From assembly GCA_017984755.1 (NCBI GenBank), contig JAGNYW010000033.1:1-32251 (forward strand): 32,251 bases of DNA. The letters are read 5' to 3'. The notes under the pieces are model-generated. The model worked only from the letters and a program-made list of their open reading frames with translations, searched no databases and was not told the origin of the DNA. Of the stretch, positions 9,845 to 19,430 are shown in pieces. The stretch comes from Methyloversatilis sp. Its GTDB lineage: Bacteria > Pseudomonadota > Gammaproteobacteria > Burkholderiales > Rhodocyclaceae. Every line of letters begins with the position of its first letter. Position 1 is the first letter of the stretch. The position numbers and the translations under genes were made by a program.

Positions 9845-10378
9845 TCAGGCCTTCACCGGACGCTTCATCAATTTGCGCTGCAGCGTTCGGCGATGCATCT
9901 TCAGTGCGCGCGCCGTGGCGGAAATATTGCCGTCGTACTCGCGCAGCACACGCTGGATATGTTCCCATTCCAACCGGCCGACCGATAGCGTTTCCGCGTC
10001 GATCGGCTGGTCAGGTGAGGCGCCAGCCACGCTGTCGAACGCCATCAGAATGGCATCCATCTCCACTGGCTTCGCCAGGTACTGGCAGGCTCCCAGCTTG
10101 ATTGCATCGACTGCGGTGGCGATGCTTGCGTAGCCCGTCAGCACCACGATACGGAGGTCCGGCAGCACGTCGAGCAGCGGCTGCACCAGCGAAAGCCCGG
10201 ATGTGCCGTTCAGGTTGAGATCCAGCACGATGCGGGCCGGCCGCAGGCGTCTGGCGGATGCGATCGCCATGCCCGGATCGGTGCAACCTTCGGCCTCAAG
10301 TCCGCGCCGGCGCAGAGCGTTGACCAGCACGGCGTTGAAGGTTTCATCGTCATCGATGACCAGAATCAATTCAGACAT
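9845..10378 (-). CDS. RegA/RoxR-type redox response regulator
   Basis: A 177-aa response regulator. The receiver domain (1-115) has acidic pocket D9-D11, phosphoacceptor D53, T81 and K103. After a Pro-containing linker comes a short Fis-type helix-turn-helix (about 135-172, with NISATARALKMHRRTLQRKL), the architecture of RegA/PrrA/ActR/RoxR. These regulators switch respiratory and other redox-linked genes. It overlaps the sensor kinase gene by eight bases, so the pair is coupled. Confidence 0.93.
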   Translation of the reverse strand: MSELILVIDDDETFNAVLVNALRRRGLEAEGCTDPGMAIASARRLRPARIVLDLNLNGTSGLSLVQPLLDVLPDLRIVVLTGYASIATAVDAIKLGACQYLAKPVEMDAILMAFDSVAGASPDQPIDAETLSVGRLEWEHIQRVLREYDGNISATARALKMHRRTLQRKLMKRPVKA

Positions 10379-11678
10379 CGACGCCGATCCGTTCGAGCGG
10401 AAGGCGGATCGTCACGCGTGCTCCACCGGTCCACGGGTTATCCAGTTCGAGTCGTCCTCCCATGCGTTCCAGGCTGGCGGTGGCGAGCAGCAGCCCGATG
10501 CCGTTGCCCTGGGCTTCGCTGCCGAAGGTCTGGCGCCCGGCCTTGCGCAGCACGTCCTCGGTGAAGCCCGGGCCGTTGTCACGAATCTCGATGAGCACTT
10601 CTGCTGCATTCCAGTCGAGCGCCACTTCAACCGGCGCGCCGGCGCGCAGTGCGTTGTCGAGTACGCTGACCACGCTCTGGCCCAGCGTCGGCTCCACCAC
10701 GATGACCGGCGGCTCGTCCTTGCCGAAGCCAGACAGGATGAAGGTGGAGTCACAGTCACTCCGAAGGCTGCGCCACGCTGAATGCAGGCCTTCAAGCCAG
10801 GCATCGCAGCGCATCGATTCGGTCCCTTCGCTGCGCTGGTCGCCCGCCTTTTCCGTCAGGCGCGTGATGATGCGCTTGCAATAGGCTATCTGTTCGCGCA
10901 TCAGCTTCAGATCCGCGGCGGCCGCGGTGTCGGCTGACGCGTCGCGTTCCATTTCGCCGACCAGTATCGCCAGCGTGGCAAGCGGGGAACCCAGTTCGTG
11001 AGCGGCGCCTGCAGCGAGTGCTCCGAGTGCGAGCACTCGCTCCTCGCGGTAGGTTTTTTCGCGTGCGCGCGCAAGTTCGGCGTCCCGCCGCCGCAACGCA
11101 TCGGTCGTGCGCATGACGAACCACGCCAGCATGGCAGCAGACACTACAAAGGTGAGCCACATGCCGGACAGGTGCAGCGTCGTTGCGCGTTCCGCGTCAC
11201 CCGGTTCAAGCGGTACGAACTGCACCATCAAGAGGGAATAGAGCAGGATGGCCAGTGCAGCGATCGAAAGTACAGCGCTACGCGCAAGCAGCAATGCCGA
11301 AAGCACCACCGGCAGCAGGAGCATGAATACCAGCGGGTTGGTGGCGCCGCCACTGAAATAAAGCAGGGCGGCAAAGGCGAGCAGGTCGATGCAGAGCTGC
11401 AGCAGACAGGTGGCGGCGTCAGGCATGCTGGCCGTCCGGCGCAACTGCCAGTGCATGACGCCATTCCAGATACCCGTTGCGACGAGAATGACAAGCATCG
11501 GTTGCTGCGGCAGAGGTACCTCAAGCAGACCGGGGGCGATGGAAACCAGAAGCAGCAATGCGGCGATCGCCCACCAGCGCGCCCTGATCAGTCCGGGAAG
11601 CAGTCGATCGTGAGGCAGCGTGGCCGATCGGGCAACGGGCGAGACTGCGGGCGACCAGATGGTGTTGTGCGGATTCAT
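10371..11678 (-). CDS. RegB/RoxS-type redox sensor histidine kinase
   Basis: A 435-aa membrane kinase with about six N-terminal transmembrane segments (residues 35-190). FSGGATNPLVF at 108-118 corresponds to the RegB GGxxNPF quinone-sensing motif. The H-box is GAAHELGSPLAT with H227. Cys267 in REQIAYCKR occupies the place of the redox-active cysteine of RegB. N342 (DNALRAG), DNGPGF at 367-372 and GNGIGL at 391-396 build the ATP site. By family knowledge it senses the quinone pool and thiol state and phosphorylates the regulator encoded just downstream. Confidence 0.94.
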   Translation of the reverse strand: MNPHNTIWSPAVSPVARSATLPHDRLLPGLIRARWWAIAALLLLVSIAPGLLEVPLPQQPMLVILVATGIWNGVMHWQLRRTASMPDAATCLLQLCIDLLAFAALLYFSGGATNPLVFMLLLPVVLSALLLARSAVLSIAALAILLYSLLMVQFVPLEPGDAERATTLHLSGMWLTFVVSAAMLAWFVMRTTDALRRRDAELARAREKTYREERVLALGALAAGAAHELGSPLATLAILVGEMERDASADTAAAADLKLMREQIAYCKRIITRLTEKAGDQRSEGTESMRCDAWLEGLHSAWRSLRSDCDSTFILSGFGKDEPPVIVVEPTLGQSVVSVLDNALRAGAPVEVALDWNAAEVLIEIRDNGPGFTEDVLRKAGRQTFGSEAQGNGIGLLLATASLERMGGRLELDNPWTGGARVTIRLPLERIGVDV

Positions 11679-11811: not shown

Positions 11812-12300
11812 ATGAAACGCCCAGTATTCCTTCAGTTGCTTCCGCACGTGCTGATCGTGGCAGTGCTGGTCGCCGTCGTTGTGTCCGGCGCCCGGCTGGG
11901 GCGTGATGGCGACCCCGTGCTGCGTGCGCTTTCACCGCCGCCCTGCAGGCTGGATCGGGGGCCGTGCCGAGTGGCGCTGGATGCAGGCGCATGGCTCGAG
12001 TTGACGGTGGCTCCACGTCCGGTCCCGGCCGGGACGCCCTTCCATGCGGTGCTTGCGCTGCAAGGCGTCGATGCACGTCAGGTCAGCATCGAATTCGAAG
12101 GCACGGACATGAACATGGGCCTGTTCAGGCAGGCGCTGTCCCCGCTGCCAGCGGGTGGATTCGCTGCGAACGTGACACTGCCCGTATGCGCGACCGGTGC
12201 GATGCGCTGGCACGCCCGGCTGTCGGTGCGCACCAAGACCGAAACGCTGGTTGCGCCTTTCGATCTCACCACGGGCAGTCTGTCGCCAGTCCGGTCGTGA
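11812..12300 (+). CDS. Membrane-anchored periplasmic protein next to RegBA/RoxSR
   Basis: 162 aa with one N-terminal hydrophobic segment (residues 8-27), then a soluble part predicted to be mainly beta strand and facing the periplasm. It has C45 and C52 (PPCRLDRGPC), a DMNMG element (M100, M102), and LPVCATGAM (C126, M131), all possible soft-metal ligands. I recall similar small proteins next to roxSR or SCO1/SenC genes, but no function is established to my knowledge. The ATG at 11812 places the hydrophobic segment at the N-terminus. The frame is open further upstream without membrane character. It diverges from the sensor kinase and converges on the PEP-CTERM gene, 36 bases away. Confidence 0.8.
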   Translation: MKRPVFLQLLPHVLIVAVLVAVVVSGARLGRDGDPVLRALSPPPCRLDRGPCRVALDAGAWLELTVAPRPVPAGTPFHAVLALQGVDARQVSIEFEGTDMNMGLFRQALSPLPAGGFAANVTLPVCATGAMRWHARLSVRTKTETLVAPFDLTTGSLSPVRS

Positions 12301-12336: not shown

Positions 12337-13071
12337 TCAGCCCTTCATGCGACGGCGCGCAGCCACGCTGATCAGGCCCAGGCCGGAAAGAAGAAGCGCA
12401 TGGGTTTCGGGCTCTGGCACGGCTGCCACAGCGAGCGTCGCGCTCAGGCCGTAGGAGGGGCGAGTCGCGTCGAGCTGGGAAATGTAGTTGCCACCGCCGA
12501 TGAACACGCTGTAGTCGCCCGCTGCAAGCGAGAACGAGCCGGTGACGACACCGTTGAGGTCGGTATCTGCTGCGTAGCCGCGGAACAGGAAGTTGGTGAG
12601 AGGATCTCCGGCATCGTTGGTCATCGACCAGTCGTTCATCGCGCGGAAGGAGCCTTCCTTCGGTACCCCGCCCAATGATGCAAGATAGGCTTGCGTGGCC
12701 GATGAGTAGTCGTAGTCGGCGCCGAGCGGAGCCAGGTGAGCCAGGCCCTCGTAGATGGAGAAGGCCGGGATCAACCCGCCGACCGACGTTGCCGTTGCGC
12801 CGGCATTGGCGCTGACGCTCAAGGTGACCATGGTGTCCGTGGTCAGCGAGAAGCGGAAGGCTCGCACCCGGTGCGAATCACCGAAATCGGCGTCGAGGCC
12901 GTCCGCCCAGCCGAAGTTGCCGGAAACAGCCTGATTGGCGATCGTGACGCTACCGCCGCTGGCATCGAAGCTGCCGAAGTCGCGGCCACCGTAGCCGACG
13001 TGTGCTTCTGCGGCGAACGGAAGCGAAAGGGCGACCGCGCTCACGAGCGTGAGGGCCTGGGTCTTGAACAT
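12337..13071 (-). CDS. PEP-CTERM protein with predicted N-terminal histidine
   Basis: 244 aa. A signal peptide (1-23) ends in an AEA cleavage motif, so the mature chain should begin with H24 (HVGYGG). The body is a Gly/Ala/Ser-rich beta-type domain with only three further histidines (H67, H112, H224). The C-terminus has the exosortase sorting signal: VPEPE at 218-222, a hydrophobic helix and the basic end RRRMK. The start at 13071 is chosen for its AGGAGA ribosome binding site and the signal peptide. It lies 132 bases downstream of the TonB receptor gene on the same strand. No exosortase gene is in this window. Function is unknown; a surface copper-binding role is inferred from context. Confidence 0.88.
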   Translation of the reverse strand: MFKTQALTLVSAVALSLPFAAEAHVGYGGRDFGSFDASGGSVTIANQAVSGNFGWADGLDADFGDSHRVRAFRFSLTTDTMVTLSVSANAGATATSVGGLIPAFSIYEGLAHLAPLGADYDYSSATQAYLASLGGVPKEGSFRAMNDWSMTNDAGDPLTNFLFRGYAADTDLNGVVTGSFSLAAGDYSVFIGGGNYISQLDATRPSYGLSATLAVAAVPEPETHALLLSGLGLISVAARRRMKG

Positions 13072-13203
13072 GGCATGTCTCCTGAGTGTCTGAGCCACGA
13101 TGAGGCTCGGTGGCACGCATTGAAGCGAATTCGACGCATCGGGGGAATGTGGCAAATCGTCGCGCCGCATCCAAGGACTGGTGAGGCGCGATGCGCTTCT
13201 GTT

Positions 13204-15483
13204 TCAAAAACTCAGGTTGAGTGCAACATTGAGCGAGCGGGCCCTGCCTGGAACCACCATGCCCCACGGAATGCCGTTGGTGGTCATCGAATTGCCCTGG
13301 CCGAGATAAGCGCCGCCCAGTGGCATGAGGTAGAACTTGTCAAGCGCGTTCTCCAGCCCGAGATCGATACGGCCATTCTTCCAGGCGAAGCTGGAGCGAA
13401 GGTTCAGCAACGTATAGCCCGGGGTCTGCGCCTCGTTTCTGACCTGCGATACCTTGTCCTTGGCCGCAACCGACTGCAACTCGATCACGTTGGTCCAGTG
13501 CGAGAATCGATGTTCCAGGGCAAGCGTCGTGTTCACCGGCATGATGTGATAGAGGTCGTCGCCCGTGCTCAGGTTGCGGCCATCGACGTAGCTTGCGATG
13601 CCGCGCAGGTAGATCCTGCCGACGTCGGCGTGCTGCGCGATCAGTGACGAGCCGGACAGGTCGACGCCATGCAGCATCGCTCGCTGATTCGCGTACTGGA
13701 GCAACACATAGCGACTCGCAGTTGTGCTGTTGAGTACATTGCATTGCGCACTGAAGGAGCGCGGGCAGCGCTGCGCGTCGATGTAGTCCTCGACGTAGGT
13801 GATGTGGCCGGACACCGTGATGTACCAGTGTTCCTTGTCCGGATCATGCCACTGACCGGTCAGCGCCCCTTTATAGGCGATTTCGGGCTTCAGGTCCGGG
13901 TTTCCGATGTAGGCGTTGCCGTCGCCGACGAAGTTGTTCATCAGGGCGGCCATCGGATTGCTCGACCAGGGGTAGCGTTCGTACAGGCTGGGTGAGCGGG
14001 TCTTCCGGGCGATCCCGGCTTCGTAGCTTTGCACTGCATCGGGGGTGAAACGCATCAGCGCAGTCAGATCGATATGGGTGTCGTTCCTGCTGCGCTCGAG
14101 GTGGTTGAACCGAGTGGCGTCAATGGAGTAGAAATTGCTGTAGCCCTGTACATCGCCTGCATCCGAGTGCACATGGTCTCCGCGGATGCCGAACAGGCTG
14201 AGCCATTCCGGAGTCCAGCGCGCTTCCCACTCCGAGAAGACGCCGACACGGTCACGCCTGCCGTCCGCGACATTCCGGAAGTCGTTGCAGCACATTGCAC
14301 CGGCGGCGATGCCGATCGGCGGCCACCAGTCATCCAGGCGATAGCTCTGGAAGTCCGTCCCGACGCGCAGCACATGTTCGGCCGTCAGGGGAATATCGGC
14401 CTTAAGCAAGCCGCCGAGCGTGCTGGCATCCGACTTCATCGGCATGAACATGCCGAAGAAGCGGTCCTGGTTCATATCCATATGGTGTTTGACGGTCTGC
14501 CTGAAAAGTCTCGCTTCAAGCTCCCCCCATGATTGCTGTCCGAAGTAACGCAGATTGATTGTCCGGTTGACGTTCGAGGGCGTGTTCTCCGCAATGACAT
14601 AGTTCCCCGCATTGACCGGATCCGGTCGGCTGAAGATCATGTCCATGCGCTGGTTCGGGAAGCCCTGATAGTCCAGCTTCTGCTCGCTGAAACTGAGTTG
14701 CAGGAGGCTACTCGAGGACCATGCGAATCCCAGGCCGACTTCCCTGTTCTTCGATCCGCTGTATCCACTCGACGCGACCTCGCGATCGGCGATCGGACGT
14801 TGGCCGAGCAGTTGCCAGAAGCCGCTTTTCTTGAAGTCGCCGGCGGTGCGGTAATTGTCGGATTCCGCATTGGATTCCGTGTAGCGCAGACTCAGCCTCG
14901 AGCTTGCGATCGACACGTCGACGCTGTTGCCCCGTGCATTGCCGTTGCTGCGGAAGAAGGTGCCTACCCGGGCCTCGGTCAGTACCCCGGTTTCCGAAGG
15001 GGCGAACTTCGGCCGTGCGGATTTGATCTGGATCGCACCCCCGATGCTGTCACCGCCTTCACTGACCGGCGCAATGCCCGCGTACACCGCAATCCTCTCG
15101 ACCTTGCTCGGATCGATGAGCGACAGCGCAGGGTTCATGTGATTGGGGCAGGCGGACATCAGGTCCATGCCGTCCACGCTGATCTTCAGGCGGTCATCAG
15201 CCAGGCCACGAATGGAAGGCAGACTGGATATGCCGCCGGCACCGTAGGTCGAGATGCCGGGAATACCTTCCAGCAGTTGTGCCGTGTCGCTGCTTTTCGT
15301 CCTTTGCGCATTAAGCGCCGACGAGGACAGGGAAGTGGCACCGATCGGGCTTTCGTCGCGTCGGCCGCTGACGAGGACCGGCTCGAGGCGTGTCGGTTCC
15401 TGCGCGCTCGCAGGGAGAGCCGAGCATGAGGTCAATAGCAGGAGTACAAGACGGAACTGCGGGCGCGGGTGCACTGGAGTCAT
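13204..15483 (-). CDS. TonB-dependent outer membrane receptor, OprC/NosA copper type
   Basis: 759 aa: signal peptide (1-28, ending ASAQ), a TonB-box-like EPVLVSG (34-40), plug domain (about 50-165) with the SIRGLADDRLKISVDGMD signature, then a 22-strand barrel ending in Phe (LNVALNLSF). The plug carries C112-P-N-H-M116, a CxxxM motif, and the barrel carries H333-H-M335, an HxM motif. Together these match the copper site described for Pseudomonas OprC. Further Met/Cys ligands are M337, M345, M347, M349 and M397-C-C399. The ATG at 15483 has no clear Shine-Dalgarno and follows a hairpin (15502-15529). The frame is open upstream, but that part overlaps the preceding gene. Copper import is inferred from these motifs. 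Confidence 0.92.
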   Translation of the reverse strand: MTPVHPRPQFRLVLLLLTSCSALPASAQEPTRLEPVLVSGRRDESPIGATSLSSSALNAQRTKSSDTAQLLEGIPGISTYGAGGISSLPSIRGLADDRLKISVDGMDLMSACPNHMNPALSLIDPSKVERIAVYAGIAPVSEGGDSIGGAIQIKSARPKFAPSETGVLTEARVGTFFRSNGNARGNSVDVSIASSRLSLRYTESNAESDNYRTAGDFKKSGFWQLLGQRPIADREVASSGYSGSKNREVGLGFAWSSSSLLQLSFSEQKLDYQGFPNQRMDMIFSRPDPVNAGNYVIAENTPSNVNRTINLRYFGQQSWGELEARLFRQTVKHHMDMNQDRFFGMFMPMKSDASTLGGLLKADIPLTAEHVLRVGTDFQSYRLDDWWPPIGIAAGAMCCNDFRNVADGRRDRVGVFSEWEARWTPEWLSLFGIRGDHVHSDAGDVQGYSNFYSIDATRFNHLERSRNDTHIDLTALMRFTPDAVQSYEAGIARKTRSPSLYERYPWSSNPMAALMNNFVGDGNAYIGNPDLKPEIAYKGALTGQWHDPDKEHWYITVSGHITYVEDYIDAQRCPRSFSAQCNVLNSTTASRYVLLQYANQRAMLHGVDLSGSSLIAQHADVGRIYLRGIASYVDGRNLSTGDDLYHIMPVNTTLALEHRFSHWTNVIELQSVAAKDKVSQVRNEAQTPGYTLLNLRSSFAWKNGRIDLGLENALDKFYLMPLGGAYLGQGNSMTTNGIPWGMVVPGRARSLNVALNLSF

Positions 15484-15501
15484 GAGCGGAGAAATGCCGA
15501 A

Positions 15502-15529
15502 AGGCGGCGAGGTCAGTGCCTCGCCGCCT
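15502..15529 (-). other. Perfect hairpin between the PEP-CTERM and receptor genes
   Basis: AGGCGGCGAGG (15502-15512) pairs with CCTCGCCGCCT (15519-15529) around a 6-base loop. On the minus strand it begins 34 bases after the Met-rich PEP-CTERM stop codon and ends 18 bases before the receptor ATG. It is followed by a mixed sequence (TTCGGCATTTCTCCGCTC), not a pure U tract. It could be a partial terminator, attenuator or mRNA-stabilising 3' structure. Confidence 0.75.
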
Positions 15530-15563
15530 CCCGGATGGCAGGTGATGTCGGTCAGCGACCGGA

Positions 15564-16268
15564 TCAGGTCTTCCTGCGCTGACGCGCGATGGCGCCGACC
15601 AGACTCAGACCGGCCAGCATCAGGGCATAGCTTTCCGGTTCGGGAACCGCTGCCGTGATTGACTGCGAAACCGGGTATCCGCTCATCGTGCCCTCTGCGC
15701 CGTATCCGGGCACACTTGTTCCTGTCATGCACACTGCGCCCATCATTCCGCCGGGCGCGCAGTCGGCGTATGCAAGCTTGTTGATCTGTGCCTGTGTCGG
15801 TGCGGCGAGCGGATTGCCGGGAACGAAGATGAGGGCATAGGCGTTGCCGGGGTTGCTGGCAGGCGAGGGGAAACCGAAATAGACACCGCCAGCGGCCACG
15901 CCTGAAGCAGGCGACCAGCCATCACCGCCTGCGCCGGTGAAGAAAGTGTTGGTATTCGGATTCTTGAATGCGGCGGCAAAAGTGCCTCCAAGTGAAGCGT
16001 CGTACCAGGAGGCCAACTGATAGTCCAGCGTCAGCCAGCGCATCCCGCCGCCCATCATCCCCGTCATCGATTCACTCAGCATGCCCTTCAGATTCGTGAC
16101 CGAATGCGTGGCCGCATCGTAGTCAAAGCTTCCGATGAAGATCGTGTTGTTCGGCTGGGTATCCGGCTCGTACCAGGTGGTGACCACGTCATAGCTCGTT
16201 GCCGCCTGAGCGCAAGCCATGCCGGCGGACAGCGCAAGCGCGACGCCGAAGTTCAGAAAACGGTTCAT
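15564..16268 (-). CDS. Met-rich PEP-CTERM protein
   Basis: 234 aa. A signal peptide covers about residues 1-23 (ACAQAA). The mature protein begins with a beta-type domain containing GMLSESMTGMMGGGM at 62-76, five methionines in 15 residues, and later C170-APGGMM-GAV-C180-M181. Both look like possible Cu(I) ligand clusters. The C-terminus is a canonical sorting signal: VPEPES at 208-213, a hydrophobic helix and RQRRK. A strong GAGGAGG ribosome binding site supports the ATG at 16268. It is the first gene of the group that continues with the copper-type receptor and a second PEP-CTERM protein. Function is not established. Confidence 0.88.
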   Translation of the reverse strand: MNRFLNFGVALALSAGMACAQAATSYDVVTTWYEPDTQPNNTIFIGSFDYDAATHSVTNLKGMLSESMTGMMGGGMRWLTLDYQLASWYDASLGGTFAAAFKNPNTNTFFTGAGGDGWSPASGVAAGGVYFGFPSPASNPGNAYALIFVPGNPLAAPTQAQINKLAYADCAPGGMMGAVCMTGTSVPGYGAEGTMSGYPVSQSITAAVPEPESYALMLAGLSLVGAIARQRRKT

Positions 16269-16484
16269 TCAGGTCATCCTCCTCGATGCCGGCTCCGCAA
16301 GGGGACGCCGGCGAGTTTAGTAACTGCGGGCAGTTCGGGCGTGGCTCGCAGGACAAGCGCGCGGTCAGTCAGGTGGCCCTTGCTGCGCTGCTTCGAGGTG
16401 GATTTTGATGCATTGAAGCGCTCGGATTGCGCGGTGCGACACTATGCCGCAGCACCACCTGACCTGTGGTTGCGTCTCGTCGCA

Positions 16485-16514: not shown

Positions 16515-16916
16515 TCAGCGCAAGGTGTCGAGCAGTTCGGCCACTCGGTCGAATTCACTCGACTTGTCGAGAAAGTGGTGTGCGCCGAGCGCCATGCTGC
16601 GGGCGCGCATGGCGGGCGTGTTGCTGTTGGTCAGAACGATGGCGAGCAGGTCCGGGTGGCGTGCATGCAGATGCTGCAGCACGCCGAAACCACTGCCTTC
16701 CCGCAGTTGCAGATCAACGACCGCGGCGTCGAATACTGTGCTGTCCAGTGCGGCAATCGCTGCAGCTTCGGTATCCACCTCGCCGGTCACGTTGATGTCC
16801 GCGTTGTCTTCGAGCAGGGCGACCAGATGCCTGCGGATGAGCGGCGAGTCTTCGATCAGCAATACCCGGAGGGGTCGCTGGCGGGGCGCTTCTGGGGAAG
16901 AGCTTGACCTGTCCAT
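16515..16916 (-). CDS. Stand-alone receiver-domain response regulator
   Basis: A 133-aa protein consisting of a single CheY-like receiver with no output domain. It shows the acidic pair E22-D23 (LLIEDS), phosphoacceptor D68 (VVDLQL), T96 and K118 (LDKSS). An ATG at 16916 is preferred over the GTG at 16964, because the extra residues are not part of the fold and neither has a strong ribosome binding site. It follows the NarL-type regulator on the same strand. It may be a second phosphorylation target, or a phosphate sink, for the divergent sensor kinase. That is inference from position. Confidence 0.87.
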   Translation of the reverse strand: MDRSSSSPEAPRQRPLRVLLIEDSPLIRRHLVALLEDNADINVTGEVDTEAAAIAALDSTVFDAAVVDLQLREGSGFGVLQHLHARHPDLLAIVLTNSNTPAMRARSMALGAHHFLDKSSEFDRVAELLDTLR

Positions 16917-17006
16917 GGCGTTGCCAGGTGTCACTTGTCGGCGAAGGGGATTCGAGTGTCGCACGGTAGCCGGGGCGCAGATGTAGGTTGCGGCCGACAG
17001 ACGTTC

Positions 17007-17645
17007 TTATTCGATCAGCCCATTCTTGAGGGCGTAGTAAGTCAGTTCTGCGTTGCTCTTCAGGGCCAGCTTGGTCAGCAGCCGGCTGCGGTAGGTGCTG
17101 ACGCTCTTCACGCTGATGAACAGCTCTTCGGCGATTTCGGTGACCGATTTTCCGGTCGCGAGCTTGTGCAGCACCTGGAACTCCCGTTCGGACAATTGCT
17201 GATGCGCAGGCGCGTCGCCATCGCCGCTGAGTCGTTGCGTGAGCAGATCCGCCACGGTGTCGCTGACGTAGCGCCGGCCGCGCAGCACGGTGCGGATGGC
17301 AGTCAGGATGTCGTCGACGTCGGCATCCTTGCGGATGTAGCCGTTGGCGCCGGCGCGCAGCACGTTCAGTGCGTACTGTTCTTCCGCATAGGCGCTGATG
17401 ATGAGCACCGGCAGTTCGGTGCGGTGCGTACGGAGCAGGCGCAGCGTGTCCATGCCGTCGCGGTCGGGCATCGAAATGTCGAGCAGCAGCACGTCGAAAT
17501 CCTGCTGCCGAAGCAGGGTCAGCGTTTCGGCGCTGGTTGCGGCTTCGGCACCGACTTCCAGATCAGGCTCGCCGTCGATCAGCTGGCGCAGGCCGTTGCG
17601 TACGATCTGGTGGTCATCGGCGAGCAGGACGCGTTTTTTTTGCAT
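17007..17645 (-). CDS. NarL/FixJ-family response regulator
   Basis: A 212-aa regulator with a receiver (1-120: D10-D11, phosphoacceptor D56, K106 in YIRKDAD) and a LuxR-type DNA-binding domain (about 147-205, LSEREFQVLHKLATGKS then a recognition helix in SVKSVSTYRSRL). AAGGA precedes the ATG. Codons 2-4 contain a run of eight A residues. The natural partner is the HisKA_3 kinase transcribed divergently from 17970; such kinases pair with NarL-type regulators. The DUF1328 gene lies 31 bases upstream and is probably cotranscribed. Confidence 0.94.
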   Translation of the reverse strand: MQKKRVLLADDHQIVRNGLRQLIDGEPDLEVGAEAATSAETLTLLRQQDFDVLLLDISMPDRDGMDTLRLLRTHRTELPVLIISAYAEEQYALNVLRAGANGYIRKDADVDDILTAIRTVLRGRRYVSDTVADLLTQRLSGDGDAPAHQQLSEREFQVLHKLATGKSVTEIAEELFISVKSVSTYRSRLLTKLALKSNAELTYYALKNGLIE

Positions 17646-17676
17646 GGTGGATTTCCTTCGAGGTACGCCACGCGCA

Positions 17677-17847
17677 TCATCTGCCCGGACGCTTCAGGCG
17701 GTCGAGCAGGAAGGATGCGACGTTCAGTGCCAGAAACACGAAAAACAGTATTTTGGCGATGGCCGCAGCGTTTGCTGCGATGTTTGCGAAGCCGAAGAAT
17801 GCGGCGATCAGGGCAACGATCAAAAAGATAAGGATGTAGCGAAGCAT
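17677..17847 (-). CDS. DUF1328 (YtjA-like) small membrane protein
   Basis: A 56-aa protein with two transmembrane helices (about 3-20 and 29-48) and a short basic tail (DRLKRPGR). Length and pattern, including AAFFGFANIAANAA, match the DUF1328/YtjA family of small inner membrane proteins of unknown function, often linked to stress genes. The start is fixed by a near-perfect Shine-Dalgarno (AAGGAGG) six bases before the ATG. The longer frame upstream is spurious. Confidence 0.92.
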   Translation of the reverse strand: MLRYILIFLIVALIAAFFGFANIAANAAAIAKILFFVFLALNVASFLLDRLKRPGR

Positions 17848-17969
17848 GACAGCCTCCTTCGATGACGGGTCGCGTTTTCCGGGTGATCCCGGTCTTTCTG
17901 CGCATGGCAACAGAATAGGTCGGGCCTTTTCGGCCGGCTGTCGTCGGCATCGCATGCCGGACGTCGGAC
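17848..17969. promoter_or_regulatory. Divergent promoter region of the signalling cluster
   Basis: This 122-base gap separates the DUF1328-regulator genes (-) from the sensor kinase (+). It must contain both promoters, but no clear -35/-10 elements were recognised. A shared site for the NarL-type regulator would be expected here. Confidence 0.5.
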
Positions 17970-19430
17970 ATGTCTGACGCCGGTCCGCGGGAACAGGCGT
18001 CAGACAATCGCCGGCCCGGTATCGCCGGCGGGCTGTCGCGCGCAGCGCGCAATGCAGGTTCGGCCACAGGCGGTGCCGAGCGGCTCACTGACAGCGTGCT
18101 CATGCGCCTTGCCCGGTTCCGCTGGGGGGCGCTGCTGGTGGTGCTGGTCGGCATCGCCTTCGCAGTCATTTCCGAAACCACCTTTCTGTCGATGCAGCGC
18201 GCGCGCGAGGAAATCGATGCGTCGCGGATTTCGCTGGCCGCGCTCGGCAACCTCGTCTATGACAACGCCCACGTTGCCCAGACCGAGGCACACTATATAG
18301 AAGAGCCTTCGGCCGAAAACCTCGAACTGCATGTGACGACCGCGCAGCGCCTGGTGGCTGCAGCCGATCAGGTCGCCGCCTGGGCCGCACGGCGGCAGGT
18401 TGACCCGGAGCGCATTGCGCCGGTGAAAGGCCTCGCCGCCGCCGAACGGGAGGAACTGAAGCGACTGAATGCGCTGCCGGCCAGGGCCAGCCCGGTCGAG
18501 GTGATGGATGCCTTCCTGCCCCAGGTGATCGAGCAGGACGCGCTGCGCGAGACGCTTGAACCCCTGCTGATGACCGAGCGGGCCTATCTCGAAGAGCAGA
18601 TGGCCCTGCTGGGCGAAGAGATCGAACGCCAGCGCGGCATCGCCATTTTCGTGGTGGCAATGGGGGTGCTGCTGCTCATCCTGCTGCTGCGTGCCTATGC
18701 CATGCGCAGCGAAATGGAGGTGGCGACGGCCGACCGCCTGCGCGAGGCACGCGACGAACTCGATGCGCTGGTGCGCACGCGCACCGCAGAACTTTCGGAA
18801 CTTGCGAGCCATCTGCAGACCGAGGCGGAGCGCCAGAAATCGGCGCTGGCGCGCGAACTGCACGACGAACTCGGCGCCATCCTGACGGCCAGCCGCATGG
18901 AAGCGTCGATGCTGCTCAGGCGCGCGCGCAAGCAGGACAGTCCGGACGTCGATGCGCTGGTTCGCGTGTGCGACATCCTCGAACAGGGCATACAGATCAA
19001 ACGTCGGGTGATCGAGGGGCTGGTGCCGACCGTACTCACGCATCTCGGGCTGGTGCCGGCGCTCGAATCACTGGTCGATGAAACCCGGGCATCGGCGCCG
19101 TTCGAGCTGGAGTTCGAGTCACCTGAATCGCTGACGCTCGATCGTGATCGGGCCATCGCGATCTACCGTGTGGCGCAGGAAGCGCTGACCAACATCAGGA
19201 AGCATGCGCACGCCAGCCGCGTCGTCATATGGCTCACCGAGGGGCCGGGCTACGTCGAGCTGAATATCCGGGACGATGGGGTCGGCATCGGCGACAACGC
19301 GCGCGGCAAGGCGGGGTCGCACGGACTGCTGGGCATGAAATACCGCGCCGACGCGCTGGGCGGTCGGTTCAGCATCGGCAATGCGCCGGAAGGCGGAACG
19401 CTGCTGCTGCTGCATCTGCCGTTGCCCTGA
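17970..19430 (+). CDS. HisKA_3 (NarX-type) sensor histidine kinase
   Basis: 486 aa. A 45-residue N-terminal extension is followed by a transmembrane helix (about 53-70), a helical extracytoplasmic domain (about 71-222), a second helix (223-241), a coiled-coil linker, and the HisKA_3 core with H298 in ARELHDELGAILTA. The HATPase shows N408 (QEALTNIRKHA) and DDGVGIG at 435-441, then GSHGLLGMKYRADALGG. The sensor domain resembles four-helix chemoreceptor-type sensors, and the ligand is unknown. The start has a weak ribosome binding site, and a start nearer the first helix is possible. It probably phosphorylates the NarL-type regulator and perhaps the stand-alone receiver encoded opposite. Confidence 0.93.
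   Translation: MSDAGPREQASDNRRPGIAGGLSRAARNAGSATGGAERLTDSVLMRLARFRWGALLVVLVGIAFAVISETTFLSMQRAREEIDASRISLAALGNLVYDNAHVAQTEAHYIEEPSAENLELHVTTAQRLVAAADQVAAWAARRQVDPERIAPVKGLAAAEREELKRLNALPARASPVEVMDAFLPQVIEQDALRETLEPLLMTERAYLEEQMALLGEEIERQRGIAIFVVAMGVLLLILLLRAYAMRSEMEVATADRLREARDELDALVRTRTAELSELASHLQTEAERQKSALARELHDELGAILTASRMEASMLLRRARKQDSPDVDALVRVCDILEQGIQIKRRVIEGLVPTVLTHLGLVPALESLVDETRASAPFELEFESPESLTLDRDRAIAIYRVAQEALTNIRKHAHASRVVIWLTEGPGYVELNIRDDGVGIGDNARGKAGSHGLLGMKYRADALGGRFSIGNAPEGGTLLLLHLPLP

Follow-up and report, generated by a model that had tools for sequence, protein, structure and literature searches.

A Methyloversatilis gene set encoding an OprC-like receptor and two PEP-CTERM proteins as a candidate copper-acquisition locus

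Several described bacterial systems resemble the subject of this report, a three-gene locus of Methyloversatilis that encodes a TonB-dependent receptor and two PEP-CTERM proteins; what is said of these systems draws on the accessible portions of the papers cited. The closest counterparts of the receptor are OprC and NosA, and copper is bound in OprC by Cys143, Met147, His323 and Met325 (PMC8610252). One of the PEP-CTERM proteins is comparable with CorA and MopE, the surface copper proteins of methanotrophs. The copper site of CorA is formed by Kyn62 (kynurenine), His64 and His114 (PMC3912023), CorA sits beside CorB, and no outer-membrane receptor assigned to CorA/MopE was found in the literature searched. 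Delivery of a metal by an extracellular protein to a receptor also has precedents. One proposed donor is azurin of Pseudomonas aeruginosa, a cupredoxin that is secreted there by the type VI system. Here the likeness is that of an extracellular copper protein loading the OprC receptor, an interaction that the OprC authors could not confirm (PMC8610252); it differs from the present case in that the partners in Methyloversatilis are gene neighbours. The other donor is ZepA, a PEP-CTERM exoprotein for zinc uptake in Anabaena, proposed as a supplier of an outer-membrane receptor in a paper that points to an OprC-like receptor and cites azurin-OprC (PMC10957091). ZepA differs in its metal and in having its own His motif, and the available part of that report describes no linked receptor gene.

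The window, a stretch of 32,251 nucleotides, corresponds to contig 69 in an assembly of 3.27 Mb assigned to Methyloversatilis (Betaproteobacteria). On its minus strand lie, in order of transcription, the gene of the PEP-CTERM protein P0003 (15564..16268; 234 aa), an 80-base gap, that of the receptor P0002 (13204..15483; 759 aa), a 132-base gap and that of the PEP-CTERM protein P0001 (12337..13071; 244 aa), so that the three same-strand genes of a previous sequence-only reading were all found as open reading frames at the place given. The locus is probably a copper-acquisition unit in which surface proteins processed by exosortase bind copper for delivery to an importer of the OprC type; the likely cargo is copper, and a hand-off from the PEP-CTERM proteins to the receptor would join the two activities. 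Both PEP-CTERM tails, as that reading had held, scored above the cut-off of Pfam PF07589, and the genome encodes exosortase (2 genes, together with 51 PEP-CTERM matches and 12 TonB plug domains), which is the combination expected of exosortase substrates. No account of such a gene set was found in the literature searched, most subscription papers lying outside the search. The earlier remark that no described copper system of this kind was known needs qualification in view of the published ZepA (PMC10957091) and CorA/MopE (PMC3912023).

The receptor offers the most direct link to copper. The Plug and barrel domains of P0002 scored above their Pfam cut-offs, and a comparison with Protein Data Bank (PDB) sequences (E up to 0.001) gave eight distinct matches, six of which were forms of OprC (best 1.4e-15), the others being PhuR (8.5e-10) and 9gbc (3.7e-5). 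A CPNHM motif in the plug and an HHMDM motif in the barrel match the CxxxM-HxM copper site of OprC. These residues (C112, M116, H333 and M335) were invariant in a 13-row alignment with identities down to 37%, as were the further methionines M280, M347, M349, M397, M511, M515 and M648. Both motifs were retained in 14/14 aligned receptors, namely P0002 and 13 relatives (relative L069 was not part of this alignment), which bears out the copper-site motifs noted in the sequence-only reading. The AlphaFold2 model of P0002 was of moderate quality, with a mean predicted local distance difference test (pLDDT) of 66.6 and a predicted template modelling score (pTM) of 0.74, and 28 of its 29 top PDB fold matches were OprC chains. 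P0002 thus shares with OprC and NosA the plug motif, the barrel motif, the best fold match and further invariant methionines, and differs from them in its low identity to OprC (16-18% in structural alignments), in its score against the copper-receptor model TIGR01778 and in being linked to PEP-CTERM proteins. On its motifs and modelled fold, P0002 is classed as an OprC-like receptor.

The second line of evidence concerns P0001. The protein begins with a signal-peptide-like stretch that ends in AEA and is followed by HVGYGGRDFG, and its predicted mature residue 1 is His. A nine-row profile search of genome contigs gathered the family from 54 loci, spanning Methyloversatilis, Thiobacillus, Nitrosomonas, Nitrosospira, Nitrosovibrio, other Proteobacteria, a Methylomicrobium and Verrucomicrobia, some of them Akkermansia. 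The only invariant histidines of the nine-row set were His24 (mature 1) and the His67 of a GDSHR motif (mature 44); among rows preselected for the A-H motif, His44 was present in 52/53 and Trp32 in 53/53. To check the N-terminal His, residues 1-2 were left out of the profile, which then matched 65 called proteins in 53/55 loci. Of the 57 that aligned as far as the N-terminus, 48 had His at the exact column and nine had an A-H displaced by a small indel; among the remaining eight, seven read A-H and one belonged to another family. The predicted mature N-terminal His of the earlier reading is accordingly a conserved trait of the family. The mature domain matched no Pfam family, and NCBIfam gave weak matches to FxDxF PEP-CTERM in 9/51 members. 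Its AlphaFold2 model, built with 51 sequences, reached a pLDDT of 94.6 and a pTM of 0.91. When this model was compared with 350,542 PDB chains, the top four matches were MopE (2vov, 4.7e-7) and three CorA chains (4bz4, 8.7e-7 to 2.2e-6); next in rank came different beta-sandwich domains, none with an E below 4.8e-5. Direct searches of PDB sequences with the P0001 family returned no copper protein, the best matches (E 0.42 and 0.027) being unrelated. As separate observations, in six Verrucomicrobia loci (L099, L103-L105, L119, L121) the N-terminal-His domain stands at the beginning of large proteins (about 1100-1600 aa), with di-haem proteins as neighbours together with a conserved protein, c1, that has a predicted mature start of HHG and no Pfam match. 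Three tandem P0001-like genes adjoin a membrane protein, c35, in a gammaproteobacterial metagenome-assembled genome (MAG) and in Methylomicrobium sp. wino1 (L124, L126), and c35 also occurs near a Nitrosovibrio locus (L127).

A sequence bridge between P0001 and the CorA/MopE proteins was provided by genomes in which a P0001 relative has large di-haem proteins in its vicinity, along with PEP-CTERM proteins of a second kind. Four of the di-haem proteins (from L073, L078, L084 and L090) and one from L125 matched Pfam CCP_MauG; some P0001 relatives sit beside such di-haem peroxidases much as CorA sits beside CorB. Ten proteins of the second kind, six from Proteobacteria and four from Verrucomicrobia, were chosen for a W-x-H motif and aligned. 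The resulting profile found CorA (1.4e-8) and MopE (1.3e-4), with the W-x-H falling on Kyn62-x-His64 of CorA, and it also matched the P0001 family (98.0%, E 2.7e-13), with its His on His44. In this second alignment the Trp falls at Asp42 of P0001 and the region of the second His (His114) at or near the invariant Glu116. A CorA/MopE copper site consists of Kyn (or Trp)-x-His and a second His, and P0001 keeps one His of these. Because two of the three site residues are replaced, both by acidic residues, CorA-type copper binding is not carried over to P0001, and the protein is filed in the CorA/MopE fold superfamily rather than as a CorA. Judged by profile and model, P0001 is a member of this superfamily that shares with CorA and MopE the fold, the His64 counterpart and predicted export; it has lost two of the three CorA residues and differs further in its PEP-CTERM tail, its predicted N-terminal His and its linked receptor gene. 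Copper binding by P0001 would then depend on a different set of ligands. The W-x-H homologues of L078, L084, L090, L092 and L073, which carry PEP-CTERM-like tails and lie near di-haem peroxidases, come from a Methyloversatilis-like genome, Nitrosomonas and another genome, and present a CorA-CorB-like pairing outside methanotrophs.

P0003 is the Met-rich PEP-CTERM protein that the sequence-only reading had described, with Met clusters (MTGMMGGGM and DCAPGGMMGAVCMTG, the latter including PGGMMG) and a VPEP tail. It was present in 4/61 searched genomes, all four Methyloversatilis. In a class survey at 1e-6 (each class survey covered 369 genomes sampled from a larger group) it was matched in 5/369 genomes: its own, G405, G260 and G130 with strong matches, and G337 with its C-terminus only. 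Strong relatives were found beside an OprC-like receptor in 8/8 genomes, namely its own, the three other Methyloversatilis (G001, G004, G010), G405, G260, G130 and the Thiobacillus MAG L079, which was reached via P0001 and not via the P0003 search. The closer copies keep the cores S-x-SMTG and YADC-x-PGGMMG-x-x-CM; greater divergence is seen in the second P0003-like copies of G405, G260 and G130.

The check on neighbours in relatives, which had been put forward with the sequence-only reading, showed the arrangement to be conserved. A trio of the same families occurs in G001, G004 and G010 and, reordered as P0001, P0003, receptor, with a second P0003-like stretch upstream, in L079. An analogous trio, made up of a P0001-like protein, a PEP-CTERM protein of family c2 and a receptor of family c3, was found at 11 other loci, including Nitrosospira and Nitrosovibrio, and in G012 (L076). 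In Methyloversatilis, c2 carries an HHxxMPGMGD stretch. Both C-x-x-x-M and H-x-M are found at six of the 11 c3 loci (Methyloversatilis and a betaproteobacterial MAG of the same genus), and H-x-M only at the five from Nitrosospira and Nitrosovibrio. At 14/55 P0001-like loci a P0002-type or c3-type receptor lay within 6 kb on the same strand, and every one of these 14 also had a second PEP-CTERM gene (3 P0003-like, 11 c2). The other 41 had no receptor within 6 kb, several of those contigs being short. The receptors of L077 and L069 were detected by tblastn, which gave none near the P0001 relative of L081. Linkage of the families exceeds chance through this conservation across genera, not through adjacency alone. 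Two more TonB receptors of the same genome, L183 (C20) and L184 (C31), adjoin PEP-CTERM gene pairs and have no CxxxM, and the pairing of receptors with PEP-CTERM proteins may thus be a wider theme. Among the receptors beside P0001-like genes, those of L087, L089, L091, L127 and L130 (Nitrosospira/Nitrosovibrio) have Ala and Thr in the plug and keep H-x-M-D.

The upstream regions of the trio share a DNA element. When those of four Methyloversatilis were aligned, a block preceding P0003 proved invariant, and one resembling it was seen in inverted orientation ahead of P0001; in the window the two correspond to the RegA/PrrA-like boxes TGCGGCATAGTGTCGC (16436..16451, minus strand) and TGTGGCAAATCGTCGC (13148..13163, plus strand, between the P0002 gene and P0001). 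The pattern TGYGGCANNNNGTCGC has exactly two copies in the window, both in promoter gaps of the trio locus. It was found upstream of 6/53 P0001-like, 7/33 receptor and 4/7 P0003-like genes. The 93 upstream regions thus hold 17 sites, where the remainder of the loci would predict about 0.5, although related genomes are not independent. Because the pattern was derived from the aligned Methyloversatilis regions, the copies in the window and in Methyloversatilis are no independent test of it; 12 of the 17 lie outside the window and L057-L059, and one of the 12, L080, is M. thermotolerans. The loose RegA consensus occurred at chance level in the window (43 found, 42.7 expected), and sigma-54 boxes (5 against 3.8), sigma-70 promoters (1 against 0.8) and terminators (0 against 2.9) did not exceed chance either. 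The detailed RegR/PrrA consensus served for comparison with the box. A RegA/PrrA site is an inverted GCG repeat with a spacer; the repeat is degenerate, and chromatin immunoprecipitation sequencing gave no strong consensus (PMC4263372). Beyond P0004, a plus-strand gene that follows the trio, lie two minus-strand genes for candidate regulators: a RegB/PrrB/ActS-like redox sensor kinase (10371..11678; 235.8 bits, curated cut-off 350) and a RegA/PrrA/ActR-like response regulator (9845..10378; 155.5 bits, curated cut-off 250). They are best matched by the RegB/RegA (PrrBA, ActSR) equivalog models NF033792 and NF033791, whose cut-offs they do not reach. Similar genes lie beside a receptor relative in G019 and G295, and the G295 pair shows 49% and 34% identity to that of the window. 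The putative boxes suggest that RegA may control the trio.

A number of results weigh against copper acquisition as set out here. P0002 scored 116 bits against TIGR01778, whose cut-off is 472 bits, and is therefore named OprC-like and not OprC; the NCBIfam heme-receptor model gave 135 bits, likewise below its cut-off. In 2/16 class-survey receptors CxxxM is lacking, and in 5/11 family-c3 receptors, those of Nitrosospira and Nitrosovibrio, the plug Cys and Met are replaced by Ala and Thr. The fold match of P0001 to CorA/MopE has a TM score of about 0.5 and a high root-mean-square deviation, and of Kyn62, His64 and His114 only His64 has a His counterpart. P0003-like tails in G405, G260 and G130, of the gammaproteobacterial class, are of the VPxPA type, or absent in one G405 copy, and not VPEP. 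TonB receptors adjoin PEP-CTERM genes in 3/12 cases in the same genome, which makes adjacency by itself weak. Six-frame analysis of 27 receptor-relative loci (16 from the 19 class-survey genomes other than that of the window, and 11 from 10 relatives) revealed neither a P0001 or P0003 homologue nor a VPEP tail, and the receptor therefore does not need P0001 and P0003. A regular expression had flagged PEP-like tails in L062, L167, L169, L171, L174 and L176; on visual inspection they were taken to be spurious, and the six-frame scan showed no VPEP tail at these loci. The exact box is limited to the few P0001-like and receptor regions given above, and it is not enriched genome-wide (8 copies against 13 for the reversed pattern), five of the six copies outside the window lying inside called genes. 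RegA control is accordingly put forward as a suggestion.

The same surface proteins could instead serve in copper defence, the PEP-CTERM proteins keeping copper off the cell and the receptor only sampling or recycling it, in which case the locus would be protective and not nutritional. Met- and His-bearing surface proteins could indeed act as a sponge. DUF1775 and DUF2946, which are presumably copper-linked, lie with another receptor near the trio or its analogue in G001 and G008, and such neighbours do not distinguish uptake from resistance. However, SCO1 and PCu(A)C supply oxidases, and genes for them adjoin some receptor relatives: both, together with a P0004 homologue, in G027; PCu(A)C in G232, beside RegBA-like genes in G019 and about 4 kb away in G032, where DUF2946 is also nearby. 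A P-type ATPase with an HMA domain is found near the receptor relative of G030. No copper-efflux gene was recognised by eye in the open reading frame lists of the window, no family scan aimed at efflux having been made, and CorA, OprC and NosA are described as copper-repressed in the available parts of the reports. Defence is thus considered unlikely. The copper assignment of the sequence-only reading is supported on three counts: P0002 has the ligands and fold of OprC, P0001 has the CorA/MopE fold, and genes for copper chaperones lie close to several receptor relatives. A small Verrucomicrobia protein that had been assigned to DUF2946 matched nothing in Pfam when one member (L100) was scanned, and it is therefore not counted as copper evidence.

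A different cargo would be zinc, heme or a chelate. Zinc is suggested by ZepA, a PEP-CTERM protein of zinc uptake (PMC10957091), and heme by the slightly higher score of the heme-receptor model; the loss of the plug Cys and Met in some related receptors also fits another substrate. Against this, the four OprC copper ligands are kept in all aligned receptors, OprC is the best fold of P0002 and copper-chaperone genes lie near receptor relatives, so that import of another substrate appears quite improbable; the heme-receptor assignment was rejected on the ligands and fold. Membership of the ZepA group was also rejected, since its motif H-X2-9-H-[FY]-H is not in P0001 or P0003 (read directly; the ZepA sequence itself was not compared). 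That ordinary PEP-CTERM matrix proteins flank a copper receptor by accident, as the 51 PEP-CTERM matches, the 3/12 receptors with such neighbours and the 27 loci with none might suggest, is highly improbable, given that the same families recur by the receptor across genera in differing order (L079, G405, G260, G130), that some of these loci share the upstream box and that P0001 has the CorA/MopE fold.

Copper acquisition thus being preferred, the following route is proposed. After export, P0001 and P0003 would undergo exosortase processing at the PEP-CTERM and be retained on the outer surface or in the matrix. P0001 would capture copper, probably as Cu(II), by a remodelled site consisting of the predicted His1 and His44 (mature numbering) and nearby acidic residues, and the Met-rich P0003 may bind or relay Cu(I). 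Energised by TonB, P0002 would then bring copper into the periplasm by way of its CxxxM-HxM site, and transcription may be tied to redox state or oxygen supply via the adjacent RegB/RegA-like pair. A more ambitious combination of these steps, tentatively advanced as a possibility, is that P0001 represents a new class of copper site on the CorA/MopE fold, in which the amine and imidazole of the predicted N-terminal His, His44 and Asp/Glu take the place of the kynurenine site. Such a site would require no peroxidase for its formation, and P0001 would load a dedicated OprC-type receptor encoded next to it, giving a complete surface-to-periplasm route that methylotrophs would have in common with ammonia oxidisers and that a RegA-like regulator would adjust to redox state. 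The presence of a CorA/MopE-fold protein encoded beside an OprC-type receptor in several genera makes protein-to-receptor copper delivery directly testable, and the trio, seen here in a methylotrophic bacterium, points to a previously unrecognised means by which bacteria may gather copper when it is scarce. PEP-CTERM proteins of this kind would give some exosortase-sorted proteins a role other than in exopolysaccharide. The ammonia monooxygenase of Nitrosospira is copper-dependent, and this genus and other ammonia oxidisers might obtain their copper by a route of this kind.

P0004 itself (11812..12300, plus strand) is a small membrane-anchored protein with a DMNMG motif that belongs to a conserved M-x-M-G; it matched nothing in NCBIfam and nothing significant in Pfam. 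Its homologue in G027 accompanies a P0002-like receptor; homologues are found with SCO1/PCu(A)C in L063 and, in L181, close to PCu(A)C and a relative of the receptor. On the other side of the trio, upstream, a response-regulator gene (16515-16964, minus strand) lies within a stretch next to the locus (16515-19430) where a divergent sensor kinase is encoded together with a NarL-type regulator and a response regulator that consists of a receiver only; homologues of these occupy the same position in several Methyloversatilis genomes.

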